Origin: Ulota crispa
Taxonomy: Eukaryota > Streptophyta > Bryopsida > Orthotrichales > Orthotrichaceae
Reading direction: 5' to 3'
Assembly: GCA_963920765.1 (NCBI GenBank)
Contig: OY987243.1
Span: forward strand, 23,989,419 to 24,053,418
Length of the DNA: 64,000 bases
In this document: positions 4,566 through 50,931 of the stretch, one piece after another
Layout of the letters: each line of letters starts with the position of its first letter
Position numbering within the stretch: position 1 is the first letter of the stretch
The notes under the pieces: model-generated
What the model was told of the DNA's origin: nothing
What the model saw: only the letters and a program-made list of their open reading frames with translations
Databases searched by the model: none
Position numbers and translations under genes: made by a program

Positions 4566-4932
4566 CAGTCAGAAGAACGTCGGATGGGTAGCCGTGCCTG
4601 CCCTCTACAGTGGTTTCTATAGTGGTGTGGCAGGTGCCCACACATTAAAATTTTGTTTCTTAAAGTTGCAAAAGTCAACAATGCATGGTGCCTTCATGAA
4701 AAGTGTAAGATGGGCAGCATGGGACTTAACACTATGACTTTGAATCTTCTCACAATTTGAATTATCAAAAAATATGAGTGCATTTGCTGAAATCTTTTTT
4801 TCATTCCATGATGCACCATGTGTCTATGATCACTTCTACAAAAAAAATTACCTGAAAATCAAATTTTTTTTGTAGCTCAGCTTGTTTTTTGGCGGTCAGC
4901 AGACAATTTTTGTCTGTGTCGACGTTTAGGGG
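4566..4932 (-). mobile_element. 358-bp TTAA-family MITE, reverse copy
   Basis: This is a diverged reverse-orientation copy of the element at 5110-5467. The right end is CGTTTAGGGG followed by TTAA (4933-4936). The left end has decayed, with GAACGTCGGATGGG where the family has TTAAACGTCTGGTGGG. Shared internal blocks include the run around ACTTAACACTATGACT and the CATGATGCACCATG stretch. No ORF is present. Confidence 0.7.
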
Positions 4933-5109
4933 TTAATGTTCTTAGCGTTCTTTGCTTGTTGTTCTCTTTAGAGTTAATGAACGAATGGGTTTTTTGCATG
5001 AACCTCAAACCACTCTACTATTCAATTTGTTATTTGAATTTTGTTGTTGAAGTTTGGTCTTGTTGGATGAGTCGATTAAAATGCCATACCTGTGTGTCTA
5101 AAGCTTTAA

Positions 5110-5467
5110 CCCCTAAGCGTCCATGAGGACGATTATTGTCCTTTGACCCTGAAAATTCAGTTTGTACAACATATTTTTTTGTTTTTCATCTATTTTTTTT
5201 CCAAAGTGATTGTAAACACATGATCCATCATAAAAGGCAAATAACAATCTTATCAAATATATTCATATATTTAAGTAACCCAAATTGTGAGAAAATTCAA
5301 AATCATGGTGTTAGGTCCCAAGCTGCCCTTATTGCAATTTTCATGAGGTCAACATGCACTATTGACTTTTGAAACTTTTAGAAACAATACTATTGGTGCC
5401 CATCAATCAAAACATTGTTGAAGCTACAGTGTGGGCAGGCCATGGCCACCCACCAGACGTTTAAGGA
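5110..5467 (+). mobile_element. 358-bp TTAA-family MITE, forward copy
   Basis: The element starts CCCCTAAGCGTCC directly after TTAA (5106-5109) and ends GACGTTTAAGGA directly before TTAA (5468-5471). It is the same length and internally similar to the copy at 43899-44256. It lies head to head with the reverse copy at 4566-4932, separated by about 170 bp. It is non-coding. Confidence 0.8.
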
Positions 5468-5989
5468 TTAAACTATTGTTTAGTTGGTGGAGATGGAGGG
5501 AGTATGTGTGAGCATAAGAAATACAAGGAAATATGGATTGCAATAGTAATGTTGTGTTTATCCTATGTTGTGAAATCGACCTTGTGATATGACAACCACA
5601 TAATCTTAATAGATGATAATAAAATGTATCTCATATTGTTTGCACAATTTTTGAGAAAAGAAATTGTGTTGCATTATAGAGACAAAAGATGGCCAAGGGA
5701 TTGACAAGAATGCTAGTGTATGTTGGATGGGTTCATTGACTAATGCTTCTCATATTACAACATACTATGTTTGTGAGCTTTGAGACTTCTTTGATGAAAG
5801 ATAATTTGGAATTAAGTTTAGTTTTGATATATTGATGTTAATTTTGACATGTTGACTTGTTGTATGACCTAATGTCAATTTTGAGATTTAGTGTGATCCA
5901 ACATCAATTTAGACACGTAGAATGTGTTGGTACTCATCCTAAATCCGTATAAATAAGTTCTATTGGATGAAAAGCTTGTCATTAAGATA

Positions 5990-6986
5990 TAATGTTATGC
6001 TCATTGTCATATTGATTCGATTATATTCTCATTGTTCTCATAAATTGTACAAACTCTATTTTACTTGTTAATACAAGCTCTTGCATTAATATACCAACGT
6101 GATATCAAAGCAATAGTAGCATCAATCATCATTTGCTCAACCCTTAGACTTTGTTCTTGTAGCAAGGTAAAATTATCTAATCTATCCTTTTTTTTTTTGA
6201 TCCACTTGTTCATGAATGCAATCCAAGATGAGTGATGCTAACAATCACCAAAATTACACGCAATAGCTTATGTTGATTCAATTCATTCATACAAAGCAAG
6301 TCAATTTCCATTTCAAAATTATTTGTTAGTTTAGTGTCTTCTATATACAACTTTGTAGCAAAACTATGGCACAATTAAACAACTCACCTAAACTACCAAT
6401 GCCTTTGTAATCTATTCCACTTACATATTGTCACAAGATTACTAGTTATCCCTCAAGTTCAACCTCTTTATCAAGCATGTATCCAAGAGAAACAACATTG
6501 TTCTTTGATATCCATAGCCACTCACAGATATACAACAAGATTTCTCAAATTCATACATTTTAACTTTGCAAATCTCTTCTAACTAAGTTGTTTATAAGAT
6601 CAAGGTATGTTTTTTCATTACTTGACGATTTTTTAAATATTGAATACAACATATTCTATTCAATTAAAGGTGAAACATTTGACGTATTCAAGCAATTCAA
6701 AAAATAGTGGAGAAGTAGACATGAAAAAATTATTGTATTTACAAATAGACATGATGGAGAATATCTTGCTTGCAAATTTAATGCATACTACAAGCTTAAC
6801 AACATTAATCATCAATTGGCTATTGTTGATATGCATCACCAAAATAAGATAAAGGAGCATAAGAATTGCGAGTTCCTAGAAACTACATGCACTTTGCTAT
6901 TTGAAGTTAAAAGTTCCACAAACTTTTGGGAGGAGACAATACAAATAGCAAAGTATGTGGCAAACCAACCTTGGGGAGATCACTAG
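5990..6986 (+). pseudogene. Degenerate Ty1/copia retrotransposon (primer-binding site, gag start, integrase fragment)
   Basis: A primer-binding-site-like sequence GTGATATCAAAGC (6099-6111) resembles the plant copia consensus TGGTATCAGAGC. It is followed by an ATG at 6228 opening a gag-like MSDANNHQNYTQ that stops at once. From 6675 one frame reads an integrase remnant. It keeps a catalytic-core block FTNRHDGEYLACKF (family: RTDNGGEY) and then LLFEVKSSTNFWEETIQIA, matching the copia LFEAKLPTKFWGEA-type block. There is an in-frame stop after FKQFKK, and the frame closes at 6984-6986. Protease, reverse transcriptase and RNase H are missing, so a large internal deletion has occurred. Upstream sequence to about 5500 may be the 5' LTR, but its start was not defined. 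Confidence 0.72.
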
Positions 6987-11499: not shown

Positions 11500-11733
11500 T
11501 TTATTTTGTCTAATACATACTATGTATGCTGCTATATAACTGGCATTTGCTACCAATAAAAAATTTTAGTTTGGGTTCTTGATTACCTCACTAGAACATC
11601 ATTGATCTATTATTCTAACTTCTTTGCTGATCTCAAATATAATAAAAGTGTGAATGCGCTTCAAATACAAGAAAAATACTCCGTATTGTAGTGGTCGCAA
11701 AGAGCTGCTAGGTCGTTCGAGAGTTAGAGCGTT
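11500..11733 (+). mobile_element. Decayed copy of the 226-bp TTAA-family MITE
   Basis: It shares GGCATTTGCTACCAATAA, CATTGATCTATTATTCTAAC and TTCAAATACAAGAAAAATAC with 26938-27163. Both ends have decayed: the right end reads GGTCGTTCGAGAGTTAGA instead of GGTCGTTTAAGGGTTAA. Confidence 0.65.
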
Positions 11734-13171: not shown

Positions 13172-14092
13172 AGTAAAGGCTCAAGTGTCCCCTCAAGGGA
13201 TAAATGGACCTTGGGCATGTACCTATTACTAAACCAATTTTTTAAATTTTTGAAACTTTTGAGGATGGTGGGGAATTCAAAAATGTACATGCATATCTAA
13301 TTTTTTCTTCATTTCCATATTTATTGAAGAAGTTATGCATGAATTTTAGAACAACAGAGGAGGGCAGGTAGTCCGAGCAGCCCAAAAAACTTTTTTCAAA
13401 TTTGCATTTTTTAAAAACAAAAATCTGAAATTGGATCTTTAGATTTACATATATGTGGGAAGTTTTGAATCATTCAAATTTGATTGATGAGTGAGAAGTT
13501 TTGGTTTGCGGGTAGGTATTGGACTCCCAAACCTCCATTTCTTTTGCCCCTTGTAAAATTTGGTGCTTTAGTTTTTTTTTACTTTTTTCCCAAGTTGTAG
13601 TAGACTAAGATTCCTTAGTTTTCACCTTTTGGATTAAAGTAATTCAGATTTCTCAATTTTACATAAATCCTCTAATTTTGACTAGTATATATGCAAATTT
13701 CAAGGCCTTGCAGCATTGCAAGATTTTACAAAGTATGATATACACCTCCAATTCATTTGAAAATTCTCCCACACTTACCTACTAGTTCTGCTACTCGGAA
13801 AAGATAAACCTCGACTTTCTGTAGAGCAATTTTTTTTGATATAGGAGCTGTCAAAGGCTTTTGAAATTTTTGGGCAGCAAGGAAAAAACTTTAGTTTTCA
13901 CTTTAGATGTCAATATCTCACTCCTCTTTACCTAGAGTGAGCTAATTTTTTTTCTACTAGTACCTCCCATAGTCTAGAGCAGGATCCTACATATGGATTT
14001 CCTAAAAAAAATCTCCTCCTTTTCTACTCATTCCCCCAAAAATGGCCGTTTTCAGTGACTTTCATAGTAAAAAGGGCTTGGGCCTCTAAGGG
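13172..14092 (-). mobile_element. 915-bp TTAA-family element, reverse copy
   Basis: The right end GGCCTCTAAGG is followed by GTTAA (TTAA at 14093-14096). Internally it matches the reverse of 49400-50316, for example the GGGCATGTACCTA block and the CACACTTACCTACTAG block. The left end is eroded. It is non-coding and related to 32441-33351. Confidence 0.65.
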
Positions 14093-14096
14093 TTAA

Positions 14097-15430: not shown

Positions 15431-15439
15431 GGAGGATTT

Positions 15440-17150: not shown

Positions 17151-17291
17151 ACATTACAAACTCCGGATCAAGAAGGTGCTCCATGCAGACTTTTATGGTT
17201 GCAATTTATTCTGCCACCCCGAAAGTGCACCTGAGGCAGTTGCAAGTGGTGATCTATTTCTGGATTTGGTTGTCGTGATCGGCTGAAGTTA

Positions 17292-17827
17292 GGGCATCTG
17301 TAATGGCACCGGGAAAAACCCCGGCAACAGTCCCGGCAATTCAGTTTGATCTTTTAATAGACAGTGAATTTGACCATAAATTTTTAGTGATTTGAAGGGT
17401 ATTGAAAATATTATTGTGAAAATGTAATAATATTTGGGTTTGGACATTGACTAACTTAAATATATCCCATCAAATGTTAGCTAACTTTCAAAAAACTTAA
17501 AGGCCCTTCCAAATCAAGCCTAAATAAGGAAATTTAAGTAAAGGGGTTGGCAAATTGCCAACCATTTGCCAACCCCTTTACTTAAATTTCCTTATTTAGG
17601 CTTAATTTGGAGGGGCCTCTAAGTTTTTTGGAAGTTAGCTAACATTTGATGGGATGTATCTAAGTTAGTCAATGTCCAAACCCAAATATTATTACATTTT
17701 CACAATAATATTTTCAATACCCTTCAAATCACTAAAAATTTATGGTCAAATTCACTATCTATTAAAAGATCAAACTGAATTGCCGAGACTGTTGCCGGGG
17801 TTTTTCCCGGTGCCATTACAAATGCCC
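17292..17827. mobile_element. Tourist-like (PIF/Harbinger) MITE, near-perfect 536-bp hairpin
   Basis: The element starts GGGCATCTGTAATGGCACC, ends GGTGCCATTACAAATGCCC, and is flanked by TTA on both sides (17289-17291, 17828-17830). Almost the whole element is one inverted repeat: arms of about 260 bp (17292-17555 and 17565-17827) meet at a short loop near TTGCCAACCA. TTA duplication and GGGCATC ends are typical of Tourist elements moved by PIF/Harbinger transposases, a relative of which lies at 22900-24216. Confidence 0.85.
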
Positions 17828-17977
17828 TTAGATGGCATGCTGATATGTAGGGCCGGAACCCGTATACGGGGAGAGCCAAAAAAGCAAAAGAAAGTCAAAC
17901 AAATGAAATGTGGAAAAAACCAACTGAAAACTAAATCAACTGGCTAAAAGTTGACTAAATTTTTGAAAATTTTATAA

Positions 17978-21850: not shown

Positions 21851-22125
21851 GTAATGCTCTGACACCAGCATTATTTTGAAATTCTTACTAATCTTACTAA
21901 TCTATCGCTGTAGAGTGAGTTCCTGAATTTGCTAATCACATATTCACAGTGACAGGTCACTTCAGTACGGCAGTGGGGGTGGGTAGTGTTGTGAGGAATT
22001 AGTGTTCCGAAGTGCAACATTGTCAAACGCGTGCACAAGTTTGCAGCATTGTCGGTCACAATTTCTGAGGACACTTTTGGCTGCAACTCAGAGGGTTAAG
22101 TAAGTACTCCCTGCCTTTTAAAAAT

Positions 22126-22453
22126 AGGGAAAATTTCATGGATACCCCTGAAGTTTGCAATATTTTCATAGATACCCCTGTTTTTTCAGAAATTTCACAA
22201 ATACCCTTACACCAAAAAATTTCAGGCATTTGTTTTGTTGTGCATGACACTTCCCTTCGTTCTTTGTGCGCGAGTTGTTTCTTTTTTGTTTCATTACATT
22301 CCCTTCTTCAACATTGGTCAAGAAGAAAGTACGAGTACAACAAATAAATGCCTAATTTTTTTGGGTCCAGGGGTATCTGTGAAATTTCTGAAAAAGCAGG
22401 GGTATCTATGAAAATATGGCAGACTTCAGGGGTATTATCCATGAAATTTTCTC
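22126..22453. mobile_element. MITE with 8-bp duplication TTAAAAAT
   Basis: The inverted ends read AGGGAAAATTTCATGGATAC and GTATTATCCATGAAATTTTC and continue with repeated GATACCCCTG / CAGGGGTATC words over about 80 bp. Flanks are TTAAAAAT on both sides (22118-22125, 22454-22461). It lies in the probable 5' intron upstream of the transposase. Confidence 0.75.
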
Positions 22454-22899
22454 TTAAAAATTTCTGTTTTCAACTATTGCATTGCGTTGTTCATTTTTAC
22501 CCTTCGTGTGCTACTGTTTATAATTTGTGAATTCAATTGCATTTTGTTGTTTAGTATGTTCTACAGAATTTCGAAACGTCTTTTCATCTTCAATCCTATG
22601 TGCAATGTATGTGTTCTCATGGTTTGGAGGGACAAGAGGTCATGTGCAGTACCGTATGCCAGTAGTAATTTGTCATTGCACTTGGCAAGTATATGTTTAC
22701 AAAAGTTGTGTAGTATGAAAGAACGGCAGATTTGACATTGATTTAAGGTATTGATATCACCGCTCTACTGCATCAGGTTTAGGGTTCCGACGCCTTCAAA
22801 TTAAAAGGAGTCCTTGTTCTTTTTCTCTTTTTTATGCAGCTCTTGAAGAAACTGCAGCGACCACCTTTGCCCTGTGCAACGGAAACATACGGACTTACC

Positions 22900-24216
22900 A
22901 TGAGTCCAAACTGTCTTGCAGCTTTAGGATCCTTCACCATGTTGCAGCTGCGTCATGCTCAACTAATTGCGGACGCACTTGCATATTACGAAGAGGAGGA
23001 ATATGAAGAGGAGGAGGAATATGAAGAGGAGGGGGAAGATGACAATGAGCTTGCCTTATCTACAGATTCCTGCATCTCTGATGCTTCAATGCTGGATGTG
23101 CAAGCTGCCTTCACTGCTTTAGGAGATGACTTGGGCTTCTGGGTGAAACGTTGCTCCACGGATTGGTTCTCTGGATTCCTCCTCCATAATGACAACAAGC
23201 GATGGGTGCGGATGTTCCGGATGACCAAAGAAGCTGTGTTTATGCTGACTGATACGCTGAAGCCGCATATTGAGAAGAAGAACACTTCCTAGAGACAAGC
23301 AATACCCGTTTTAGTACGAGTAGCTTGCACCCTGTTTAAGCTGGCGCACGGTGCTAACCTCGTATTGTGCAGCTACATGTTTGGTGTGGACAAGAGCACG
23401 GTTCCTTTAATGCTTCGTGAGGTTGTTCACTCAATCAATGAAGCATTGCGTCATGAGATTGGCTGGCCAACAGGTGATCAAATGGGAGAGATCGAAGCGA
23501 AGTTCTTTCAGTTTTGCGGCTTACCAGGGGTAACAGGTGCCATTGATAATATGCGGGTACCTATCTCGAAGCCTCAATACTGTCCTATGGATTATCGTCG
23601 TCATTACAATACTGGTGGATATAGCTTGAATTGCCAAGCGGTAGTGGATAGTGAAAACAGGTTTTTGAACTTATGCGTGGGAATGCCTGGTTCCACTAGT
23701 GACTCCCGAACGCTTCGTCGATCTTCGCTATACAACTTAGCTTCGCATGGACGCACCCTAGACCCTGCAACAAAGTTGCATGGATTTGCTCCCTACCTTT
23801 TGGGGGACCGGAGTTACCCCCTCTTGCCTTGGTTGATGGTCCCACATCGTTGTCGGAGACCGATTTCAGTGGCGGAGCTGACCTTCAACCGTCGTCTCAG
23901 GAAGGGCCACAGTGCTGTTGAGGATGCCTTTGGAATTCTGAAACACACATTCCGTGAACTCCTCGTGGAAACTGAACTGAGTGTAGTATTTCTACCTGAT
24001 GTCATCCTTTGTTGTGCCATATTGCACAACATTTTGCTTGGCCAGTCCCACGATGAAGTCGAGCAGTTACTATCTCTGCTTCGTGAGGAGGGGTTAGATG
24101 ATGAGCGTGCAGGTGTTGAAGACTTTGGAGGCATTGTTCCCGAGAGAGAGGCCAAAGCAGAAGCTGTGGAGAAACGTGCTGCTTTGGGCGTTTTTGCCGT
24201 AACTCAACGCCCATGA
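22900..24216 (+). pseudogene. HARBI1/PIF-Harbinger transposase-like gene with one in-frame stop
   Basis: One frame from the ATG at 22900 to the stop at 24214-24216 gives a 438-codon HARBI1/ALP1-like protein, broken only by TAG at 23290-23292 (PHIEKKNTS*RQAIPV). This block is continuous in relatives, so an intron there is unlikely. Order: an acidic Glu-rich stretch near residues 29-50; the N-terminal region (FRMTKEAVFMLTDTLKPHI); RVACTLFKLAHGANL; FGVDKSTV; then DDE_Tnp_4 with TGAIDNMRVPIS (first D), MPGSTSDSR, LLGDRSYPLLPWLM (second D) and GHSAVEDAFGILK (E). All three catalytic acids appear retained. A pyrimidine-rich tract and CAG at 22837-22839 suggest a spliced 5' leader. It may be a domesticated gene or a nearly intact transposon. 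The stop could be a recent mutation or a sequencing error. Confidence 0.82.
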
Positions 24217-26451: not shown

Positions 26452-26937
26452 AGACATGCATCTGATTGCACGGTTGCGAGTTCAGGTGTTTTCAGTTGTG
26501 TACCTTTGGTGTTATCGATGGTTACTTAGCAGCACACATCATATTGAAATTATGCGTCCACGCTTGCAGGAATTATGGCTCTCATATAACTGCTGAGTAT
26601 TACGATGTAACAGAAAATGCCAATTGTTCCTACCACATCTTCTGGTTCTCACAGTTCATGCAGGTGGGTACAACCCCTCATCTGCGTATTTTCCACGTCA
26701 ATTGTTTTTTATGCTGTACTGTGACTTAGCTCTTCTTTTGTAACTTGTAGCATTTTGGAGGTATTACTGCTCATCTTATTCTCATTCAAGTTCTATAGTT
26801 CACGGTGATTGAGCCTAATAACAGAGGAGACTGTGTGCAGAGATGTTTAGAATAGGGCTTTTGAGGCCACAGAGCAGTTTGTGCAAACTGAGAATACTTT
26901 TTACGCCAAGGTATAGCATTATAGATATGCTCTTTAA

Positions 26938-27163
26938 CCCTTAAATGACCATAGGACATAGTATGTACGCTGACGTGTAATTGTCATTTGCTACCAATAA
27001 GAAATCTTCATTTGGGATCTCAAGTAGCTCACTAGAACTGCATTGATCTATTGTCTAACTTCTTTGTTCGTCTCAATTGTTATAGAGATGTGAATCCATT
27101 CCAAATACAAGAAAAATACCCTATATTGTATTGGTCGCAAAGGGCCTTTCGGTCGTTTAAGGG
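26938..27163 (+). mobile_element. 226-bp TTAA-family MITE
   Basis: The element starts CCCTTAAATGACC after TTAA (26934-26937) and ends GGTCGTTTAAGG-G before TTAA (27164-27167). Copies lie at 44368-44591 and, decayed, at 11500-11733. It sits in the pseudogene intron between 26910 and 27318. Confidence 0.82.
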
Positions 27164-27503
27164 TTAATCTAAACAAATATGTGCTGTTTGTGGTTGAGTC
27201 ATGTGGTTCTGAGTGTCAAAGTGGCAGTGGTCAATAAGATTGGAACATTTTCCACTTGGCCCTCTGTAATATTTCGATGCCATTATTTGTATAATCAGTT
27301 TTCTGAAATCTTTTTAGTGTTCCCTTTCGTGGACTAACAATTGGTGCACATAGCAGCGGCAATAATCAAGAGATTTTACTGGAGAGCAGAAATGAGCACA
27401 AAGAACCGAGCATTCCTCAACTGACTACAACATATTCAAGCGAAAGAGAAAGAGGCGTTTCAACTGTCCACAACAATGTCCCTAGATTTCCTAAACCCAT
27501 TAG

Positions 27504-28324
27504 GTAAACTGCAACCATTCCCGATGCTATGCTCTTCACGGTACACATTCTACATAAAAAAACTTGAAATGAAATCACGAAGGCATTAACTCCTACACTT
27601 TGAAATGCAGTTGTCTTGAGGTTTGAGGGTATTCACTTATCGTCGCTAAACAACACCAAATGGACGTGGTCCTCTATGCTTACACACATATGCGCATTAA
27701 CGAAAAAAAATCAGAAATCCAAGATTGGTGACCAATACTTGATCGTTGCTAAACCTTAAAATGGAGAAAACCAACAATCTTCACTAATGCAAGGACGTGC
27801 AATGCAGGTACAACAAAAAAGGAATGGTTAGTGGACGGTGAACTCACTATGCAATGCTAGGACAGTCAAAGAATGCAACAACATTATTTGCAATTATTGT
27901 AGAAGTGAGGCTAGATATCTTCACTCTCTCTTGGGTGGACACCTATGACCAAAACAATGCAGGAATTGAAGTTGAAACTCAAGGCGCTATTTTTAGCTAG
28001 TTCTTATCAACCAAAAACGATACAAAACATTGCACTCCAAAATTGCAAATGAACGTTTTCTTTAGATTTGATTATGTAGTATCGGGTACTTCTACACTTT
28101 CATAACTACAGCTCTTTGTTTGGACTTAACACTCTGCTAGCATCGCTCTTATTGCCGCCTCCACGTAGACTCGGGAGCAAAACTATGTGTTAGTGTGAAT
28201 ACTCCACCGGAGAAAGTCACCTACCATTGCTCCTTTTTCTTTGTAAGGCTAAGTGCAAACATACTTTAAGTCTTTTTAGCAAAGGACCACCATTGGTACA
28301 ACGAGTACCTAAACTTGTTTTTAA
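27504..28324. other. No recognisable gene
   Basis: This is sequence downstream of the last pseudogene exon. It shows neither family-like ORFs nor clear repeat termini. It may contain further decayed 3' exons of the SCYL1-like gene; a weak acceptor occurs near 27609. Confidence 0.4.
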
Positions 28325-30811
28325 TCCTTAAACATTTGATGGGTGGCCGTGGCCTATCCATATTGTAACTTCAATAATATTTATATTGTAGCTTCAGTAG
28401 TGTTTATACTATAGCTGTTGACCTCATGAAAATTGCAATAAAGGTAACTTAGGTTCTAAGATTGTGATTTTGAATTTTCTCACAATTTGGGTTACCTAAA
28501 AATATGAGTATACATTAGAGGAAAAATGAGCTCAAGAGAAGGCCCCTACACCTTGACAAACCACCCTATTTATTGAGGTAGGAGAAGCATAGGTAAGGTA
28601 CCTACACAAGGGTCTTTACACGGGGAGTGCACTCCCTTTTCTTTTATTGTACATGTGCAATCAAATGAAGGGTTATTATAATTGCCTTGGTCCTAAATTT
28701 TTGACATGGCTTTATAAAAAGTAAGCATCATTGAAATGGGTGTGGGCTCTTTATAAATAATGAAGGGTAGGGCATAATCATGAGAATTATAAAAAATTTA
28801 GTTGTACAATAGCCTTGCCAATATTCAAAAAACAAAGCCTACACTTTTATTGGATATATTTTAGTTATTTAATGGTTGGTTGAAGTATCCCATGTTTTGA
28901 GTATGACAAAGTATTCCATGTTTGATCTCTATCCAAGTATCCAATGCCAATTGTATTTAGCAATAGCTTAGGGTCGTAAGGTTAATAAATGATGTACAAG
29001 TAATGATACAAGATTGGATACATAGATGAAGCTTTTGTTGATGTTCATTTACGGACTTATGGCTTGGGCTTAGGATTAGCGTGGGGTTTGAGGGTTGGAT
29101 CGTGCTTTAGCAACTCATGCTTGCACGCTTGAATGTATTGTGGTTTTGATTGCACAGTTTATTTCAGATTTGTCAACAACGCTTTTTGTTTGCGTACGGT
29201 TTTTGGACTTTGTACGGGTTTAAATGCAACACTATCTTTGCGCTTGGGTTCTTTTCCCACGCTTTCTTTGATTTCTTTGTGTGCTCAACTTAAAAGGGGT
29301 TTGTGGTTGAAGTGGAATGGGTTTCACTACTTTTTGCTTCATCCTATATCGAATTTACAAATTAGGTTTTAGGTATACTATATGCTTTTCCATGCTTTAT
29401 GTTTTCTCTCAAGTTCTTGTTTGAAGAATTGTGTGATTGGTTAAAATTTATGTTTTGAAGTGTTTGGTCTTTGATTACATGTGTGTAATTTTGTTCATGT
29501 CATTATGTATTTATAAGGAACATGGGGTATACAAAAATATCACAAGAACTTAATTCAAATGAAGCCTAGGGTACATGAATTTGTCAAAATTTAGAAATTT
29601 AGGTAAATATAGCCCTATGGAAATAAAAAAATATTACCTACATAGCCCCCATCTTATAGGGGCTTGAACGCCCATTACTAACAAACAACATGTATAGTGC
29701 ACTCCCCATGGGTTTTTACCTTGAGTGAAATACTCAAATGTACCATGCTATGCAAAGCAATATTATAACATGACAAGTACTAATGCAAGGACCTCCAATG
29801 GATCATTGTTGATTAAAAAATTCACTCTTTATTTTTAATAAACTCAAAAGTGTTGTATACACGGTATGCATGGTAAACTCGGGTACAAGACTAATTTACC
29901 CCTAGAATCCACCTACTCCCATCCATGATCACTGCTTACAAGACACAAGGCTGGCATGTGGCACTTTAGTTGTATATTTCTGTAGTGGTAGCAAGAGGTG
30001 GAGCTTCCATGACTCATTTATTATTACCTTTTTTGAATCAAATGCCTCATATTATCTTCAAGTTTAGCCACGTTGTTTGCTTCATGTGCAAAAAAATTGT
30101 TTACAAGCAACAATGATGATGAATTTGCCATTTTGTAATGGATTGAATGTAAACCAAGTATTTTTTTTTTTTGCTAGAATCATGTTTCTATAATCCAAAA
30201 TCCTATCTTTTGATTAAAAACAAGATTTTTGGGGAACTTCAATGACATTCACTTGGCAAGCTAGTCACTCAACTCCTGCAAGGAAACCTTGTCTCTTTAT
30301 TAAAAAGAGCATTTTTGGGGAACTTTGATGATGTTCACTTCACAAGCTTGTCACTCCACCCCTCTTGTCACAATCAATGTAATAGTTAAATGTACATGTA
30401 ATAAACAAACACTACACTTTGTAACTAGGACACATGAATAAACTACAATAAGAATTCCCAATCAAAGAAGGACACTCATCAAACAAAGAGAATAATATAT
30501 TGTAAAAAGAAATCATCCTCATGAAGTACTACGTCATAATTTGTGAGCAGATATAGGGTATTAGTCTCTTTTTATTTGAAAAAGGACATTCAATTTAAAT
30601 ACTTTTGACCCCTCCAACCACTTCCCATACGGGCCTTCTCTTGAGCTCATTTTTCCTCTAATGTTTGATAAGAGTGTTATTTGCCTTCTATGATGGATCA
30701 TGTGTTTACAGTCACTTTGGAGAAAAAAACAAATGAAAAACAACTTTTTTTGTTGTACAAAATGTTTTTTAGTGCCAAAGGACAAAAAATGTCCTCATGG
30801 GCGTTTAGGGG
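28325..30811 (-). mobile_element. 358-bp TTAA-family MITE split by a 2.15-kb insertion
   Basis: The left part 28325-28512 (after TTAA 28321-28324) and the right part 30664-30811 (before TTAA 30812-30815) together rebuild one reverse-orientation copy of the family at 5110-5467. The right end reads GGGCGTTTAGGGG. The interruption falls within the AATATGA...TTTGATAAG region. Confidence 0.78.
28513..30663. mobile_element. 2.15-kb non-autonomous transposon with 33-bp perfect TIRs
   Basis: The ends are perfect 33-bp inverted repeats, beginning CATTAGAGGAAAAATGAGCT at 28513 and mirrored at the right end (30631-30663). It is inserted inside a 358-bp TTAA-family MITE. The interior has no transposase-like ORF; the 79-codon frame at 29133-29372 is unconvincing. 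Superfamily unclear: if the true ends are GAGGAAAAATG, the flanking dinucleotide is TA; if CATTAGAGG, no duplication is visible. Confidence 0.72.
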
Positions 30812-31107
30812 TTAATAGTAAAATTCTATGAAACATCACTTATGCAGTGAAGGGGCTCTAAAGCACAATTAATTGTTATGTGATTAATCCTAATATATTT
30901 TCATAACAATATCCAAAAATGTAAGAAGTTAATATGTAGAATTCATATTGAAAACATATTCTTAATATCCTAAAAGCAGTGTAAGTGAATAGTAAAGTTG
31001 CCAAAACCTATTTAAAAACAAGTGGTAAAACCATTGAAGAATTAACAAAATATATGTATACATATACTAGTTTACTCACCTGCTGTACCAATGGGTTGAT
31101 CATTATA

Positions 31108-31208: not shown

Positions 31209-31977
31209 TACATGCATGGAATGCAACTCATAGTTGCACTCAAACTCTTTACTTTTCATCCAAAACAGCCCATGGGATTCTTTTATAGATATAGATATAT
31301 ACTACTAAGCGGGAGCCTAACTCTCATTGACTCTGTGTCCTTTTTCAGAACCTTCTAGAATTTTTAAATGAAAGTTGAAGTGATAAAAGATGCCCTAGAT
31401 ATATACAACCAAGCACTCTCCAACCATCATGTCTTTTTCTAAAATCTTTTAGAAGTTTTTTATGGAAGTTGTAACAACAAAGGATGCCTCAAATCAAGAT
31501 CATCAAATGCCCTCTATCCATATCTTAATAAACCAACAAAACACCAATCACTTCCTAGCAAAGTATTAAAAAGCAGCATTGTTATGAAGACAATTATGAT
31601 TTTTGGTTTTAAGAAAGGACCAAAATGACAATGCATGAGATATTGATTTTCTATGACGTACATTAGGATTAGATTCTAGATCAATTGTTTTGTGAAATAT
31701 CTTTTTGTATAGTTGAATGTTGCATTATGCATACATGTCCAACTCACGCAATGCTTGTGTGTGTATACTAGTACATATGTGTGTCTATATACAGTACAAA
31801 GGAAAACAAGGGTCTTAATAAAACCTATACTGACCTGAATTTTTGGGAATATTAATTATTTGTTTGGATGTACTGAAGTTCCTATCCACTAGTAATATTT
31901 ATGGATATTTGGAAAACAAAATCTCAAGTTCAAGTTTTAATGTCATTTTTAAAAACCTTAGATCCCTCAAACTTTAA

Positions 31978-32342
31978 TCCTTGAACACCTAGCTAGTCCC
32001 TATGATTGCCCCCACTAAAGTTGCTCTACAATGGTGTGGCATGTGCTCAGATAATATAATATTGTTCCCAAAAGTTGCAAAAGTCAATAGTGCATGCTGT
32101 CCTCACAAAAATTAAAAGAATGGCGCCATGGGACCTAACACTGTGCTTGTGAATTTTCTCACAAATTGGAATTCAAAAAAATATTTGGACATGTCATGAG
32201 GCTATTTTTAGCATTCCATGATGGAGCACATCTCCATTACCATTTCTGAAAATAGATTGGATGAAAAAGACTTTTTTGTCATCTTACAAGGAATTTTTTG
32301 GGCAATGAGGGGACGATTTTAGTCACCTTGGGCGTTTAGGGG
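31978..32342 (-). mobile_element. 358-bp TTAA-family MITE, reverse copy
   Basis: The left flank is TTAA (31974-31977) followed by TCCTTGAACACC. The right end is GGGCGTTTAGGGG with TTGA (32343-32346). The interior matches the other copies (TTGCAAAAGTCAATAGTGCA, CATTCCATGATGGA). Confidence 0.72.
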
Positions 32343-32440
32343 TTGAAGATCAAAAGTTCTACTCTATTTTCTCTTGGTCATTTGATTGTTGTACCACCTT
32401 CTCATAAAATTCTCTTCATCATTCCAACAGCTCTATTTAA

Positions 32441-33351
32441 CCCCTAAAGGACCAAGCAAAGTTTTCACCAAAAACTCTTCAAAACTACCATTTTTAGAGC
32501 ATCAACCAAATTTGAAAATAAAAACATTTTTAAGCATATGTGATTGTAGGATCTTGTAGAAGAATGGTTTTAGAAGATATGGAAAAAATTTCAGAGTTTT
32601 CCACCGCGTGGATTGGAAGTTAGAATGGTTTGAATATTCAAAAACATCTTGTGAAAAATCGGGCAGCTACCCTTTAGAAGGTGAAATTCCTAGGGGGAAA
32701 AGGCCATGTGGGTGGTGCTTCTCTAAATTCCTTATTCTGCCTAAGTAAGTACATGTCAAAAAAGTTTCAAATCATTTGGAGTTGTATAACATATGGAAAA
32801 AAAATTAGTAAGTGAAAAGAAGTAGAGAATGATTTAAAACACAAAATTGTTAAGAATTGAATTATGGAAATTAAAAATGCCAATCCCAATGGTCATAATG
32901 TTGTCATAAACAATATTCATCCTTTGGTTTTGTTTTTTTTTCTAGAATTTTGAAAATTGAGTAAAATAAAGGACTTCAAAGTTTATTTTGGAGTAGAGAA
33001 TCCATAACTACCCACAAACAAGAAATCCTCATAACTTTCATCTTGTTAATCCAAACGGAATGATTCAAAGCTTCCTACAATCACATAAATCTCCTAAACC
33101 AATTAAAATTTTTTTTTTGAAAAAAGTGATTTTTAAAAATCTGCCCAGGCTGCCCAACAAATGTAAAAAAAACATATTAGGCCATAACTTTTTACTCATA
33201 ATTCCAAATATCATGAATTTAGTGCATATGAAAGATAAACCTCGTACGCATATTCTATTTAAATTTCAACCTAAAATATGAAAAGCTCCAATCACAAGTA
33301 CTTGCCCAAAATTGCTATGTTTCTAAAAAAGGGGGTCTGGTCCTTTAGGGG
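32441..33351 (+). mobile_element. 915-bp TTAA-family element
   Basis: The element starts CCCCTAAAGGACCAAGC after TTAA (32437-32440) and ends GGTCCTTTAGGGG before TTAA (33352-33355). Related copies lie at 49400-50316 and, reversed, at 13172-14092. Only short spurious frames occur in it, so it looks non-autonomous. Confidence 0.8.
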
Positions 33352-33780
33352 TTAAGCATGTATCATTTCTTCCAAAAGGATGGGCTTCCGAATGTTTTGA
33401 GAAAATTATACGAGAGTATAATGTACTGACGAAGAATGTGATATTATAGAAGGTTATATTAAAGAGGTCGGGGTACACAATAAGCTGTAGTTCACACTTT
33501 GACCCCACCCTCTCCTGTCGCGCCTTTCTTCGTTCCTCTTTTTAAAAGCCAGCCCTTCTTAGCTTCTTCCCCGTGAACTCTCCGCTTAGGATTTCATCAC
33601 CGGTAGACGTCAATCAACAACCGACACAATTCAGAAAGTCCTCGTTAATTCAAGTCAATTGTTTTTTCAAAAAGATACACTATCGCCAGAATTAGGGTTT
33701 CCCAGCACCAAACCTCAGAAGCTGCAAGCGATCCATCACTTGGAGCAACATATCGCAAGGGGTTGTGATCGCCCGCCGGG

Positions 33781-39669: not shown

Positions 39670-42232
39670 TTAGGCAGCTTTTCTCGTCTTTGGTTTAGTT
39701 AGCTTGTAAAGTACCATCCGTACAATCTTATAGAACCACAATATGCTAACCACTTGGATTCCAACGGCTCCTATCTGCAATAGGGGTGCAAAATACGGAG
39801 ATCTCCTGTTAGAAGTTCATTTGTAAGACCGGTACTGATAACTAAGAATGTGATGCAAAAATTTAAAGAAAAAAACAAAGAGAAGATGATTACATCACAG
39901 ATTGGAAGTGAAAATGACGAACCTTAACGGTGACGGGGCTGGTGGGTGACACCACACACTTGTACACAACTACTGGCCCAATAATTATCCTAGCGACGGT
40001 GAAAACTAAAGAGAAAATAACCTGCACAGAAGCCAAATATTACAGGGGTAAAAACAATGAACGCGTTATTCGTTAATTTGGGAAAAAGCGTACAAAGTGG
40101 GATTTCTGGTTTTTTTTCTGGTTTTTTTTCTTTTTTTTCTTCTTTTTTTTCTTTTTTTTTTTCTTTTTTTTTCTTCCAGAGAACGCCATCTTCATTGGAT
40201 TGGGAATTTGTTGTCTGTTTTCCTATGAAATGAGATATATATCATCCAGAAATATGCTCTTTTTGGACAGAAAGTGCATTAACTTCTGAAATTTTGGACC
40301 GAAGTTCATTAACTAGGTTTCAGGTGACCTCCTTAATTTGAATTCAGGTGGCAATTTTGGAGTAACGTGAGGTACAAAATGGTACCCATCGTTTTCCCAA
40401 ATTAATGAATAACACGTTAATGGCACATTTTTACAAGAGCATAAGTTAGATGTCATAGCCTTCAAGACATCGCACATAGACAGGGTGCTAATTATGAGTG
40501 AATGCTTACATCATTAGCAAGGCTTATTGGTGAGTCTTTCAGCTTCAGTTCCTTAAGAATCTCCCGGCCGTGCATGAAGGGGTTTGACACCTCCATCAAC
40601 ATCAAACACGCCACCAGCTCTGTCCCGCTCTGTTCAGTAAAATGGAATAGCCAATGTATATCAAGCATGCGGCAGTTAGAAAATATAAACACGAGAGATT
40701 CATCACGAAAGAAGCTTGAACGATGAAACTTCAAATGCAAACAATGAGAAATCGCAGCATGAGGAGAGTGAACGTACAACTTCACGCAAGTATCCAAACG
40801 CCAGTCCTAAAAGAGTGAGAAAATGGTGCACTAGAAACTCCACGCTGAAAGGAAGCTCCACAGCGCAACAAACGGTGTCGTAAATGAAGTAAGCGAAACT
40901 AACTGTTAAAGCCAGCATCTGTGACATTCAAATAGGATCACATTAGCGATTTACAACAGCGGATTTAACAAAGAATTTTGAGATATCGATATTCCATTAA
41001 AAAACGCGCTATAAATATTATATATCAAATTTCTCAGAGATAACAGAACTACAAAAGACATGCTGAACATCTTTCTGAACGTATTTCCAACAACGCATTG
41101 CAACGCAAATGTAGAATACAAGTACTATCAAAATTACTCAAGGACGAGTTTCAAAAATTTACTCAAGCGAGTTATTCCGAGGCTTGAACAGCTAACGTGG
41201 ACAAGGAAACTTGAGTATAAGCAATCCTTACATAGCGACGAGTATACACTCTTAACCTAAACTCTCTGTAACAGAGCTCACGGAGCTAGACTCCCGTAGC
41301 GGCATCAAAACTACAAAAGACATGCTAAACATCCTTCTGAACGCATTCCCGCATTCCAGCGCAAATGTATAATACAAGTACTATCAAAAGTACTCAACAT
41401 CGAGGTTCAAAATTTACTCAAGCGAGTTATTCCGAGGTTTGAACAGCTAACGCGGACAAGGAAACTTGAATATAAGTAATCCTCAAATAGCAACGAATAT
41501 ACACTCTAACCTAAACTCTTTGTAACAGAGCTCACGGAGATAGACTCCCGTAGCTACAAAGGAAATGATGAACATCCTTCTGAACGCATTCCCGCAATGC
41601 AACGCAGATGTATAATACAAGTACTATCAAAAGTACTCAATATCGAGGTTCAAAATTTACTCAATGTGCATGATAAGCGACTTATTCCGAGGCTCGGACA
41701 GCTAACGTGGACCAGGAAACTCTAACCTAAACTCTCTGTAACAGAGCTCACGGAGATAGACTCCCGCAGCGGCATCAAAACTACAAAGAAAATGTCACAA
41801 ATCCTTCTGAACGCACACCTCACAACACACCGCTATGCCAATGAGGAACACAAGTATTATAAAAAAAAGTTATCAATGTCGAGGTTCATCAATTTATTTC
41901 TTGTGCATTGTACGTGAATTCATTCGGAGGCTTGGACCAGAATAAGTAATCGTCGCATTGCACTCACTCTGACCTAGAGTATGACGAAATTTGACCTGAG
42001 AGTAGGTGGAAGCGGCGCCAACACCGTCCAGAGGGCGAGACCAATCGGAAACCGATTTCGTGCAGAAATACAAGGACAACACCACGTGAACGAGTGAGAC
42101 GCAGCGGTTGCAGAAATCCTTGGAGCGGCCGGGGAAGGCGAGGCGCGTAAGCACGTAGGTGAGCCCCCATGCTGCAGTCATGGCCGACAGTGTCGTCGGC
42201 CCGAGCTCCAATTCCCCGGAGGAGACTCCCAT
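39670..42232 (-). CDS. TLC-domain (TRAM/LAG1/CLN8) membrane protein
   Basis: Five exons join in phase 0 into a 233-residue protein: 42232-41996, 40918-40778, 40629-40510, 40021-39923 and 39774-39670. TLC proteins are multi-pass ER or plasma-membrane proteins that handle or sense lipids. Visible blocks: CNRCVSLVHVVLSLYFC (exon 1), LALTVSFAYFIYDTVCC and FLVHHFLTLLGLAFGYLREV (exon 2, with the conserved HH), SGTELVACLMLMEVSNPFMH (exon 3), VIFSLVFTVARIIIGPVVV (exon 4), and IQVVSILWFYKIVRMVLYKL then TKPKTRKAA (exon 5). A basic C-terminal tail without aromatic ER signals is evident. An upstream in-frame ATG at 42379 would add 49 residues including poly-Thr. The plant TMEM56/TLCD4-like subgroup is most likely. 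Introns carry a satellite array and a MITE. Confidence 0.88.
40059..40419. mobile_element. ATTTGGGAAAA-ended MITE inside a TLC-gene intron
   Basis: Inverted ends AACGCGTTATTCGTTAATTT and AAATTAATGAATAACACGTT lie at the two sides of the segment. Internal GTACAAAATGGTACC is shared with 61961-62242 and 19788-20053. A pyrimidine-rich T/C tract (about 40108-40175) lies inside. It is within the intron between exons 40629-40510 and 40021-39923. Confidence 0.72.
41047..41900. repeat. Satellite-like tandem array in TLC-gene intron 1
   Basis: A unit of about 225-260 bp is repeated roughly 3.4 times, with starts near 41047, 41308, 41550 and 41776. Each unit holds ACTACAAAAGACATGCT-like, ACATCCTTCTGAACGCATT, ATACAAGTACTATCAAAA and AACAGAGCTCACGGAGATAG blocks. 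Units differ by internal deletions. Confidence 0.85.
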
Positions 42233-42375: not shown

Positions 42376-42490
42376 CCACGATGAACCCACTCGCCGTGGT
42401 CTCGGTCTTGGGTCGGATGCTTTCAGTCTAATCACCTATGACCGAGAACATTTCCATGTCAGCTGTGCGGTCTGGTTTTTGAACCCTTAA

Positions 42491-43137
42491 CCCCTAAATG
42501 CCGAAGGCACCCAATTTGGGTGTTTGCAAAAAGTTGGAAGATGAATACAACCTTATCAAATCACTATTTTTTGTATTTTCTTTTGAACAAAAGTTTTTTT
42601 TGAAGTCTATTTTCAGTATCAAAAATCTGATTTTGAAAATGAATGTTCATGATTTTTCTATCCAAGATTTTGTACAAGGGTCTCCACTGCAATCTTGAGT
42701 TTTCTAGTGTTGGAAGATCTTGATAATGAGTCTCAAATACACTAGAGCTTGGAGAAAAATCTGCATTAGAAATCCATTTAAAAAAAATATTGGAGTAGAT
42801 TTTGAAAGTCGTAAATTGGTTGAGGTTAAACATGTAATGACCTTAAGCTTCATATTTTTTTGATAACCAAATTTTTTTAGATTTGACACGTGAAATGAGG
42901 ATTAGAAAACTTCAAGTTCTTTTTGCAGTTTTAACACCCTCATGTTCAAACATTATAATCTTTCAAACTATAAGTGATATTGTTGTGTTTTCTTTTTCCA
43001 TGTAATCTCTAACATGTCAAGTTTAAATTTATATGGTTACCATTTAAAAAAACTTGATAAGATTTATGAAAAGGTTGGTTGATTGTTCACTTCCCTAAAA
43101 ATGCCAAGAAGCTCAGAAAGGCCTTGGGCATTTAGGA
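42491..43137 (+). mobile_element. 646-bp TTAA-family element (chain member 1)
   Basis: The element starts CCCCTAAATGCCGAAGGC after TTAA (42487-42490) and ends CCTTGGGCATTTAGGA before TTTA (43138-43141). It matches 46623-47267 in reverse. It is non-coding. Confidence 0.8.
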
Positions 43138-43141
43138 TTTA

Positions 43142-43894: not shown

Positions 43895-43898
43895 TTAA

Positions 43899-44256
43899 CC
43901 CTTAAACGCCGAGGAGGAATTTTTATGTCCTTTGGCCTGAAAAAAGCATTTTGTATGATAGGATAAAGCAATTTTTCATCTAATTTTTTTAGAAGTGATC
44001 ATAAACACATGGTCCATTGTAGAAGGTAGAAAAAAACCTCACCAAGTGCACTCATATTTTTTGATAACTCAAATTGTAAGAAATTCTAGAGTCATGGTGT
44101 TAAGTCCCAAGTTGCCCTTATTGCAATTTTCATGAGGTCAGCAAGCACAATTGACTTTTGCAACCTTTAGAAGCAATATTATTGGTACCCACCTACAAAA
44201 CCATTGTAGAAGCTACAGACAAAGTAGGCCACGGTCACCCGTCCATTGCTTAAGGG
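43899..44256 (+). mobile_element. 358-bp TTAA-family MITE (chain member 3)
   Basis: The element starts CCCTTAAACGCCGAGG after TTAA (43895-43898) and ends GCTTAAGGG before TTAA (44257-44260). It has the same length as 5110-5467 and shares long internal blocks with it (TTGCAATTTTCATGAGGTCA). Confidence 0.83.
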
Positions 44257-44367
44257 TTAAACTAGGGAATGCCACTTTGGCACATCTCAATCCGGTCTAG
44301 CCATAGGCAATTTAGTAAATGAAGTTTGTGAAAATGGTCAACTTAAAGTAATGGTTTAATACTTCAA

Positions 44368-44591
44368 CCTTTAAACGACCACATGTCATAGTATATACGC
44401 TACCATATAATTGGCATTTGCTACCAATAAGAAGTTTTAATTTGAGATCTCAAATAGCTCATTGGAATTGTATTGATATGTTTTGTAACTTTTTTGTTGA
44501 TCCAAAATGTAATAAAGGTGTGATTTCATTTCAAACATTTAAAAAAAATTGTATTGTACTGGTCATAGTAGCACGCTCAAACATTTAAGGG
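44368..44591 (+). mobile_element. 226-bp TTAA-family MITE
   Basis: It runs CTTTAAACGACC to AACATTTAAGGG with flanks TCAA and TTGA. It shares GGCATTTGCTACCAATAAGA with 26938-27163. Confidence 0.72.
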
Positions 44592-45699
44592 TTGATCTGT
44601 AAATGGCCATTGTCCTTGCAAGGGACAAAATGTATTTTGGGTAGGCTTACATGATTGGGATTTTTGATTGATTTGTTTGATTTATTTCTTTTGAAATAGA
44701 ATTTTGCAAGGCCTACGTGGGGTACAAATTTCATTGAAATTTGATTTGTAGTTCAAAAGTTATGAGGAGTTTTAGTGAAATGTTAGTTGGATGGACAACT
44801 TGGGCATGCCATTTGTTATTGACTTCTCCCAAGAGAAAGCAATGAAGGCATGACCCTTCACTTGAGTATGTCCAAAGCAATAGTGTACTAGATAAATATA
44901 TTTAATTGTATTAAGTAAGTACATCAACATTTGGATTGCAATAACTACTAGACATTTGGTTATACTTCTAATTCTTTCTTATATTGTTGTCAATAAAGCT
45001 AGAATCTTCCAATTTGCTACTTGGATTTTTGTTCCGTACAACACCTTCCATATTTCAACATAAAGAATTTCTTAATCCGTGAAAACAAAATTCACCAACT
45101 TTGGCTCCCTTTTCTTTACAAATTTGGTCAATTTGTCCATCATGTTTTTGTCATGTCTAACTAAACAATGTTGCAAAAAATCACTCACCAATGGATTGTT
45201 CATTTTAGAAAACCAATAGCAGACATCTTTGTGATTCAAGAGCAGTTGCTCATGCTGTCTTGGGTATAATTTTTTAGAAATCTTTTACCCCATAATCTAT
45301 TAGCCTCCAAATTCCTAGATTTCAAATGAAAAATACGTTGGTAGGTCAGAAGAGTTTTTGGAATTACAAATAAATGTTCAACATCTTCCTGTACCATATG
45401 ATTATTTATTGTTGTTGCCACCTCCAACCCAACCGTGGTTTCCTGCAATGCTCACAAAACATCAACCTAGGGCTTCCGAGCTTCACTTCACAGCTGCAAC
45501 AAAAAAATTGGAACCTTGTGAAGCCTCCTCCACCACATGATTTTCAATTTTTGAATCCTTTGCCATCACTTGATAAATGAAATGTACAACAAAATAAGAA
45601 CAAAACATTGCCATGAACATGTAAATAAATAAATAAATTCATAACTACAAGAATATAAGTTTGAAAATTGATCAAATGAGTTTTTTTTTTTTTAATTAT

Positions 45700-46190: not shown

Positions 46191-46622
46191 CTAAATAAGA
46201 GGAGCTCTACCTTTGTTCACTACCTTCTTGTGTTTCATTGACACTCTAGGTCCACAAATGTCATTTGTGTTGATATTCGTGTTTTCTGTGCTTGATTGAA
46301 GTTCACAAATGCTTTGTCATTTTGTATTTTCCTATGAAGAAGCAATGATGTTGTTTTCTTCATCTCCAATAAAAGTCTCCTTACAACAACTTCCCTACAT
46401 TGTATAGACAAAAAACAATTAAAACAAACACACTAAAAGAAACCATTGAAGGCTCCTTTTTCAACCCAAAAAACCAACACATCAAGAAGAAAACTCATCA
46501 TACGCTTCATGTTGTTGTTCAAAATTGTCCACGTACAAGCAATGATAATGTTAAAAATAAATCCTGGCAAGTCAAAACTTCTCAAAGTGAGCATGAGAAG
46601 TTCACATGTTAAGCCTTGTTAA

Positions 46623-47267
46623 CCCCTAAATGCCCAAGGCCTTTTTTAAGCTTCTAGGAATTTGCTTTAAACAGAAAAAAAGCTACCATTTTGATAAGTT
46701 GTATCAATTTTAAAAAAATTGTAACCATACAAATTCAAATTAGATATATTAAACATCACATATGAAAAGAAAACACAACAATATCACTTATGGATTGAAA
46801 GATTATAATCTTTGATCAAGAGGGTGTTAAATTTGCAAAAATGACTTCAAGTCTTTTAATCCTCTTTTGACATGATAAATCTAAAATTTTGGTCACCAAA
46901 AAAATACGAGGTTAAAGGACATAACATACATAACTCCAATCCATTTACAGTTTTTCAAAATTTCTTTTACAATTTTTTAAAAAGAGTTTTTAGTGTAAAT
47001 TTTTCTCCAAGATCTAGTGTATTTGAGGCTCATTTTCATGAGCTCTCAACATTAAAAAGGTCAAGATTGCAATGGTTACCCTTGCACAAAATCTTGAATA
47101 GAAAATTCACAATTAATTATTTTCAAAATTGGATTTTGATTGCTAAAACTAAACTTCAAAAAGAATAATTCTAAAATATTAAATATTAAAAATAGTAGCT
47201 TAGTTAGGTTTTATTGAATTTCAAAATATTGTTGGCACCAAAATGTAATGCCTTGGGCATTTAGGGG
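46623..47267 (-). mobile_element. 646-bp TTAA-family element, reverse copy
   Basis: TTAA (46619-46622), then CCCCTAAATGCCCAAGGC at the left and GCCTTGGGCATTTAGGGG at the right, then TTAA (47268-47271). The TIRs are nearly perfect, and the interior matches 42491-43137. Confidence 0.85.
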
Positions 47268-47271
47268 TTAA

Positions 47272-48957: not shown

Positions 48958-49185
48958 CATACGCATTGCCAGTGGCCATACACTATTGGTCAAAGTGCAT
49001 GGCCTGGCTTGCTTGTGCCATTCACTGCGGCTAGCAGTATATGGCCCTTGTAGCAATTGCCATACAATATCATCAACATTGTATGGCAATTGCTGCAAGG
49101 GCTATATATTGTTGGCCGCAATACGTGTATGGCACAAGCTGGCTAGGTCATGCACTTTGACTAGCATTGTATGGCCGCCAGCCTT
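48958..49185. repeat. Long imperfect hairpin (miRNA-precursor-like or MITE)
   Basis: Two arms of about 100 bases, starting GGCCATACACTATTGGTCAA and mirrored by CTAGCATTGTATGGCC, pair with scattered mismatches and bulges around a 9-base loop (ATCATCAAC) bounded by ATTGCCATACAAT/ATTGTATGGCAAT. Pairing over the arms is about 80 percent by eye. Confidence 0.6.
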
Positions 49186-49399
49186 CATTTTTTTTTTCAA
49201 AGTTTCCTAATTCGAAGTCAAGTTCTGTGGAGACTTGATGTAGTTATGAGTACAACTAGGCGTGATCAATAATTGCTCCTCCCAATTTTTATGGACCTCC
49301 ACAGGCTCACTTGATGCCGCAAGACGTGCGGCGCTTTATTATACTAGCCGCTGGACCCTATCTCTGGGTGATCAGATTCCAAGGTGGGTGGGCCATTAA

Positions 49400-50316
49400 T
49401 CCCTAAAGGACCAAGCTATTTTTTCTGAGAAAAACACAGAAAACTTCCACTTTTGGGGAAGCAAGTACAATGGTAAGAAAAAAAGTTTTTACATGAATTC
49501 AACCATAAGATCTTATAGTAGACTATAAGAGGTACATGTGGTAAAAAAATCAGCTCAATCTACACAAAAATGAGTGAGATATTTACATCTGAATTGGGGA
49601 AAAAAGTTTTTTTTGGTGCTGCCCAGAAATTTCAGAAGGCTTTGACCACTTATAGAGCAAAAAATTACTCTACACAAAGTTGAGGTTTATTTTTCCCATG
49701 TAGGAGACCAAGTTAGGTATGTGTGGGAGAATTTTCAAATCAATTGGAACTATACAACACATGGGAAAAATAGTAAGTAAAAAGAAGTAGAGATTGAGTC
49801 AAAACACTAAATTGTTAAGAATTTAATTATTAAAATGAAAAATAAAAATCCCCAAGGGTCAATGTTGTGATAAACAATCTACATCCTTTGGTTTTGTTTT
49901 TTTTCCAAAATATTGAAAATTGAGTAAAATAAAGGACTTCAAAGTTTATTTTAGAGTAGAGAATCTAAAACTGCCCATAAACAAAAACTCCTCATAACTT
50001 TCATCTCTTTTAATAGAATTAAATGCTTCAAAGATCCCCACATCTATATAAGTCTAAAGAACCTATTTCAGATTTTTATTTGAAATAAATGAAATTTTTA
50101 AAGAAGTTTTTGGCTGCCCAGGGAGCAGCATTTTCCAGATTTTCATGCATAACTTCTTCAATAAATGCTAGAATGAAGAAAATTTACATTCCCATGTAGA
50201 TTTTTGAATTCCTCATCTTCAATAAAAATTTCAGAAAATCACACTAAGTAATTTAGCCATAGGTACATGCCCAAAATCCCATTTGTCCCTCGAAAGGAAC
50301 AATGGTTCTTTAGGGA
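49400..50316 (+). mobile_element. 915-bp TTAA-family element
   Basis: TTAA (49396-49399), then TCCCTAAAGGACCAAGC; right end GGTTCTTTAGGGA before TTAA (50317-50320). It shares extended internal sequence with 32441-33351 (TCCTTTGGTTTTGTTTTTTT, GAGTAAAATAAAGGACTTCA). Confidence 0.8.
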
Positions 50317-50931
50317 TTAAAAAGAAAAGAAAACTTTTCCAGGGGTCCTTGCCGATGTCTTGGGATTCGGCTGCGTTGCCGTCAGCTGCCACTACCTGGT
50401 TTGGGATCCGATCTCCTTTTAATGCACGACGCGCATTGCACCCTTGACACAGGATTGCCCCATCTCTTAGGGTTGACTAACACATGTTTAATTGCTGTAT
50501 ACATAGAGCAGAAACTCGGACATTGCCTTTGCTAGGTGTGTCATAAAGAGAGAAAGAAGTAAAAAGTCTTTGGACTAGAGCAAGGCTCTTTGAGCAAGAG
50601 TCGTTGTGATGGGATTCCAACATTTTTTTGATCAAAGCAGCAGCAGAGACACTAGTCTTTGTATTTCTCAGGTATGTGTATGCCATTCCGGCTCATTTCA
50701 GGGAATTAGTTTTGATGGAGGCCTCTTGTTTAACAATTGAAACTCAAGTAGGTTTGTGCTCCTTCGTTTAAATCTGTAAAATTTTGAATTTATGCTTGTT
50801 GCTTCAAACATATTTGTTCTTCTTCATATTAGGGGTTTCAAACTTACAGGTTGTTATCAGTAAAGACATGCGTGATTTGGCACATGTTAAACAAAACTTT
50901 ATTTTGGAAGTAAATTTGCACAATATAGTTA

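Follow-up and report, generated by a model that had tools for sequence, protein, structure and literature searches.

The repeats that recur across 64,000 nucleotides of moss DNA (positions 23989419-24053418 of contig C2, in an assembly of 274.8 Mb and 157 contigs; this whole stretch is called the window below) appear to be non-autonomous MITEs of the piggyBac superfamily, residing in the nuclear genome and moved by the transposases of larger elements, a reading to which we give a probability of about 0.94. It is carried by a 4-bp target duplication, by inverted ends, by transposase homology together with the catalytic triad, by transposases bounded by TTAA and by the resemblance of the ends of two MITE families to those of transposase-bearing elements. 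A first-pass annotation of the window had already suspected piggyBac behind these repeats, and the duplication, the PF13843 transposases and the transposase elements with TTAA-CCCC ends bear this out. PiggyBac is a genome-engineering workhorse known chiefly in animals, and a large swarm in a land plant is unexpected.

Using eight representatives from the window as BLAST queries to set the borders, we delimited 14 piggyBac-type pieces amounting to 6,540 bp, or 10.2% of the window. Two of these pieces (13193-13519 and 13747-14096) are the halves of one degraded copy and share a line below; L-numbers denote loci fetched from the genome.

4576..4936, minus strand: 358-type element with one recognisable end, an exact TTTAGGGG-TTAA on the right; degraded on the left
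5106..5471, plus strand: 358-type element, flanked left and right by TTAA on visual inspection
11515..11726, plus strand: 230-like piece with degraded ends
13193..14096, minus strand: degraded 915-like copy in two matched pieces
26934..27167, plus strand: 230-bp element (one TTAA counted) with CCCTTAAA ends; a script found the ends to match and TTAA to flank both
28321..28548, minus strand: 358-type fragment, from BLAST
30590..30815, minus strand: 226-bp piece with one exact end, about 155 bp in common with the 358 type
31974..32346, minus strand: 358-type element, TTAA on the left and TTGA on the right
32437..33355, plus strand: 915-bp element (one TTAA counted), TIRs identical over their first 14 bases; a script found the ends to match and TTAA to flank both
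42487..43141, minus strand: 646-type element, one TTAA exact and the other tetramer changed; left end similar to the left end of the L022 element
43895..44602, plus strand: 708-bp composite, a 358-like left part of about 346 bp and a 230-like right part of about 200 bp
46619..47271, plus strand: 646-type element (649 bp, one TTAA counted), TIRs identical over their first 14 bases; a script found the ends to match and TTAA to flank both
49396..50320, plus strand: 915-type element (921 bp, one TTAA counted); a script found the ends to match and TTAA to flank both, left end similar to the right end of the L021 element

The first-pass annotation had described at least five families (about 226, 358, 646, 753 and 915 bp) in roughly a dozen copies, with unrelated interiors and, in all but the 753-bp family, shared ends, most of them with TTAA on both sides. 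The core of this description is real: the outermost tip is indeed shared, the TIRs of the window elements starting with CCCC or CCCT (CCCCT/CCCTT, i.e. CCC[C/T]T) and matching across the first 14 bases in the best two, and the 915 type (32437-33355, 49396-50320) and the 646 type (46619-47271, 42487-43141) are the clearest families. A 753-bp family was not recovered in the window; the nearest to it is the 708-bp composite, which has an exact TTAA at one end and an altered tetramer at the other. The interiors are not all unrelated either, since the 226 piece and the 358 family have about 155 bp in common, and the composite again departs from that description. About half of the elements do have TTAA at each end, the remainder having a changed tetramer or only one recognisable end. 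As the same annotation had it, no transposase accompanies the repeats here: none is encoded in the 14 window pieces, which contain no stop-to-stop open reading frame of at least 120 amino acids apart from a 4-base overlap at 42487-42490.

The termini are strongly enriched, in the window as in the genome. Within the window, CCCCTAAA occurs 8 times against a mean of 1.88 in 100 shuffles, TTAACCCCTAAA 7 times against 0.01 and TTAACCCYTNANNGNC 11 times against 0.00. Genome-wide, we counted 30,972 occurrences of TTAACCCCTAAA (15,477 and 15,495 on the two strands) and 77 of its reversed control (41 and 36), 42,149 of a looser 16-base terminus pattern (21,051 and 21,098; control 92, from 43 and 49), and 2,742 and 3,038 of two 20-base tips characteristic of the 646 and the 915 type, for which the controls gave 0. 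The 16-base pattern has a similar density in the window (11 per 64 kb, 172/Mb) and in the genome (42,149 per 274.8 Mb, 153/Mb), and the window can thus be taken as typical; together with its 10.2% share, this would put piggyBac-type elements at about 10% of the genome by extrapolation from a typical-looking window. Abutting elements with one common TTAA (TTTAGGGGTTAACCCCTAAA, both tips exact) were found at 335 places in the genome, a modest excess of about twofold over a rough expectation of about 140 from the window TTAA density of 6.1 per kb, possibly reflecting insertion into element ends.

Searches with the 646 and 915 types returned 4,765 and 4,593 first-look candidates respectively, which are not confirmed copies; the 40 scored for each were, besides the query, 88-91% identical and nearly full length. 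In a sample skewed to copies resembling those of the window (11 sequences per family, the window copy plus ten), sequences lie 0.04-0.07 K2P from their own majority, with mean pairwise K2P distances of 0.102 (646) and 0.095 (915), a pattern that looks as after a burst of copying. Absent coding capacity and many copies of uniform length are features of piggyBac-derived MITEs, and both were found here.

For each of these two families ten high-ranking copies were fetched, in all 20 of the 78 non-query copies with a score, leaving out three near-top copies whose match started at base 2 or 3. TTAA lies on both sides in 17 of the 20, and in the other three on one side, with a one-base change at the other. 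Empty sites then allowed the duplication itself to be read. The element at L027:514-1452, 935 bp long and with CCCCTAAAGGACC ends, lies inside an older repeat, and its joined flanks yielded 247 first-look candidates, of which 40 were scored, two of these being its own flanks; 20 of the top 21 others served as the empty-site set. All 20 have a single tetramer at the junction and none has two copies: TCAA in 14, TTAA in two and TTTA, TTAC, TTAT and TAAA in one each, with an adjacent deletion in one. As the older repeat mostly reads TCAA at this point, the copy hit by the L027 element presumably carried TTAA; a further uninserted copy at L019 has one TTAA. Exactly one TTAA is also present at the empty site of the 646-type insertion in L043 when compared with L025, and the 646-type insertion in L040 was compared with six uninserted places, which show varied tetramers and, in one, a 4-base gap. 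Two uninserted homologues of the L040 site lie in the window:

22120..22205, plus strand: single tetramer TGAA
22372-22451: second uninserted homologue

The length of the insertion L003:1501-2455 agrees with a 4-bp duplication, its homologues reading CCAA, and the nested element L033:8562-9478 was dropped as a case, three homologues being gapped at the junction. The insertions at L027, L043 and L040 thus display a 4-bp duplication of the TTAA type, as suggested for these repeats at the outset and as is characteristic of the piggyBac superfamily.

The genome also contains the corresponding enzyme. The piggyBac transposase domain (PF13843, DDE_Tnp_1_7) gave at least 120 matches, with a best E-value of 1.3e-73 and 116 of 528 candidates scored; 110 of the 120 are interrupted by stops and 10 are stop-free. 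One stop-free domain (L032) matches the solved structures of piggyBac (6x67, E 1.9e-19) and piggyBat (9c0f, E 6.1e-16). In 20 transposase loci, fetched mostly from the best matches, aspartate fills the columns of the catalytic triad in 17, 14 and 17 cases and all three of them in 12, two gaps in these columns being due to partial matches; after the domain, 16 of the 20 have a loosely defined Cys-rich pattern, at least one instance of which (L038) is spurious by eye. The 20 domains fall into at least three groups with support of 0.999-1.000.

The borders of the larger elements are best seen where independent copies can be compared. L019 and L028 represent one 5.0-kb transposase-bearing element, 90.5% identical over 5,029 columns: their alignment starts at the TTAA of L019 (TTCA in L028) and ends one base past the right TTAA, with none extending beyond the TTAA bounds, and hence a transposase gene lies inside an element with TTAA-CCCC ends. 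L022 and L037 agree at the right end up to a point no more than three bases from TTAA; no left end was found for L037, where it is degraded, and a candidate at 1065 was rejected as the end of a nested 915-type MITE. We set aside matched end pairs alone as proof of borders in favour of such alignments, given that they surround 7 of the 20 transposase loci, one of the seven (L037) spuriously, and that in the window chance pairs surround 29 of 212 control centres. Elements with paired ends around the transposase measure 5.0-7.5 kb. The genome search that the first-pass annotation had proposed was therefore productive, returning many DDE_Tnp_1_7 proteins with the DDD triad in larger elements, some of them bounded by TTAA-CCCC ends.

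TTAA duplication is not unique to piggyBac, as Kolobok and Sola3 elements also duplicate TTAA, and by itself it is not diagnostic. It is nonetheless very improbable that the repeats belong to one of these superfamilies with the piggyBac genes as mere bystanders, since piggyBac transposases lie within elements having identical TTAA-CCCC ends and a 646-type end agrees with the end of one of them at 92% over 37 bp. Still further from plausible is a telomere-like, otherwise tandem or chance origin of the motif, which is suggested by the likeness between CCCCTAAA and CCCTAAA, the common telomere unit of plants: the motif comes after TTAA and forms the inverted ends of homologous interiors, and the empty sites demonstrate insertion, which refutes this explanation.

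Within the piggyBac reading, the first-pass annotation had favoured cross-mobilisation of all families by one transposase, the common CCCCTAAA tip being enough for recognition. The tip is indeed common to several families, and cross-mobilisation of this kind is proposed for corals in passages of PMC2872659; even so, we regard a single transposase as unlikely here. The transposases form at least three well-supported groups, some of the MITE interiors are related, and the 646 and 915 families differ in the transposase-bearing elements that their ends resemble: the ends of L022 (CCCCTAAATGCCTAA) and L037 (CCCCTAAATGCCCAAG) are like the 646 type, and those of L021 (CCCCTAAAGGCCCAAG) are near the 915 type. 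With the first 20 bases set aside, 0 of 2000 shuffles equalled the similarity of the 42487 end to L022, and 1 and 0 of 2000 equalled that of two 915-type ends to L021, values that overstate the certainty because the pairs were picked once the end ranking was known. The two swapped pairings tested showed no such similarity, 294 and 1749 of 2000 shuffles doing equally well, and the other 646-type end tested, at 47271, was not significantly similar to L022 either (181 of 2000). We read this as several transposase lineages, each probably with its own MITEs, and the proposal of one enzyme for all families is left unsupported. As L021 may be a cousin of L022 and L037, with which it groups at a support of only 0.234, partial cross-recognition is possible. 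For the 226, 358, 230 and 708 pieces no partner was found among the transposase-bearing element ends compared, and a palindrome common to the 226 piece and L038 was discarded for lack of significance, 1087 of 2000 shuffles doing equally well.

In the model that we favour, non-autonomous piggyBac MITEs served by several transposases, elements of at least 5 kb elsewhere in the genome would produce a piggyBac transposase (DDE_Tnp_1_7, DDD) that recognises the MITE tips, excises the element and reinserts it into a TTAA elsewhere. A number of diverged transposase lineages would act side by side, the outermost tip being common and the bases inward differing, so that the 646 and 915 families would be paired with different transposase-bearing elements. 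Mobilisation of MITEs in trans by these transposases would be part of this picture, excision may be footprint-free and any copy might be active at present. In comparison with piggyBac from Trichoplusia ni (6x67/6x68) and piggyBat from Myotis (9c0f), the moss transposases are homologous with an aligned DDD triad, the TTAA duplication is alike and a C-terminal Cys-rich motif is present in most loci examined, whereas the host is a plant and most moss copies contain stops. The delimited moss elements, at 5.0-7.5 kb, are also longer than the animal piggyBac and piggyBat elements.

PiggyBac-derived MITEs (CMITEs) are described from corals in passages of PMC2872659, which give piggyBac TIRs as 12-19 bp with a CC[C/T]T tip; the moss tip CCC[C/T]T has one C more than this motif. 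As those passages present them, the coral elements share with ours TTAA, CC[C/T]T tips, a composite element and the resemblance of one family's ends to an element with a transposase, yet their interiors are conserved and their TIRs vary. In the moss the tip is common and the interior varies between several of the elements; here a plant is the host, and copy numbers are much higher. For plants, sections of PMC8086355 and PMC10813416 mention piggyBac-like elements in passing, part of PMC4438587 counts PiggyBac among the superfamilies in all groups studied, land plants apparently included, and an excerpt of PMC6890710 lists 1,230 annotated PiggyBac copies (0.00%) in a fern. No plant piggyBac case appears in the corresponding passages of PMC9499001, PMC11707139 and PMC10954464, and a moss paper was rejected as a source because the matching portion of PMC10619864 contains only the word "piggybacking". 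No described moss piggyBac was present among the open-access literature matches listed, a scope outside which most subscription papers fall.

The kind of element is thus already known, and what is new is the host, the scale and the coexistence of lineages. We consider evenly balanced the broader proposal that long-diverged piggyBac lineages radiated in parallel, each with MITE families of its own, and jointly came to form about one tenth of the nuclear genome. If true, this would be the first described land plant with piggyBac as a leading transposon class and a possible source for plant-adapted piggyBac systems. The presence of many transposase copies and tens of thousands of derived ends in a land plant raises the testable questions of how piggyBac arrived in plants, how the host restrains it and whether tip and subterminal sequence separate the lineages in one genome, and it puts a name to a repeat class that moss genome annotation might leave unclassified.

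Among the proteins encoded in the window are NdhS (E 7.6e-27) and one resembling STIG1 (E 9.7e-14). The PsaB protein of plastid contig C157 scored best with 8htu (1714 bits), 6l35 (1712) and 7ksq (1710), which we take to be from Physcomitrium, followed by 9lut (1676) and then 7wfd (1632), presumably Arabidopsis; the closeness of the plastid PsaB to the first three indicates that the host is a land plant, likely a moss. Of 48 PsaA/PsaB matches, 46 lie off contig C157, as fragments on the large nuclear contigs C1-C10, suggestive of DNA transfer from plastid to nucleus.

The window has several other features. Two same-frame open reading frames split by a stop (22783-24216), when joined, match DDE_Tnp_4 (E 4.2e-26) and Plant_tran, and are predicted to represent a Harbinger-type transposase or a gene derived from one. 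An inverted repeat with 94-nt arms (22142-22435, 87%) belongs to a dispersed repeat, the target of the 646-type insertion in L040. Long fold-backs are formed by a near-perfect inverted repeat at 17291-17828 (two 265-nt arms, 97% complementary, 8 nt spacer), and a further fold-back lies at 57875-58108 (115-nt arms, 92% complementary, 4 nt spacer). A unit of about 295 bp recurs in direct and inverted copies at 54073-55832 (83-86%), unrelated to the piggyBac pieces; the region of the STIG1-like Cys-rich protein (59195-59883) contains repeats of 141-147 bp, and 41154-41815 holds a tandem-like array with a repeat spacing of about 216-255 bp.
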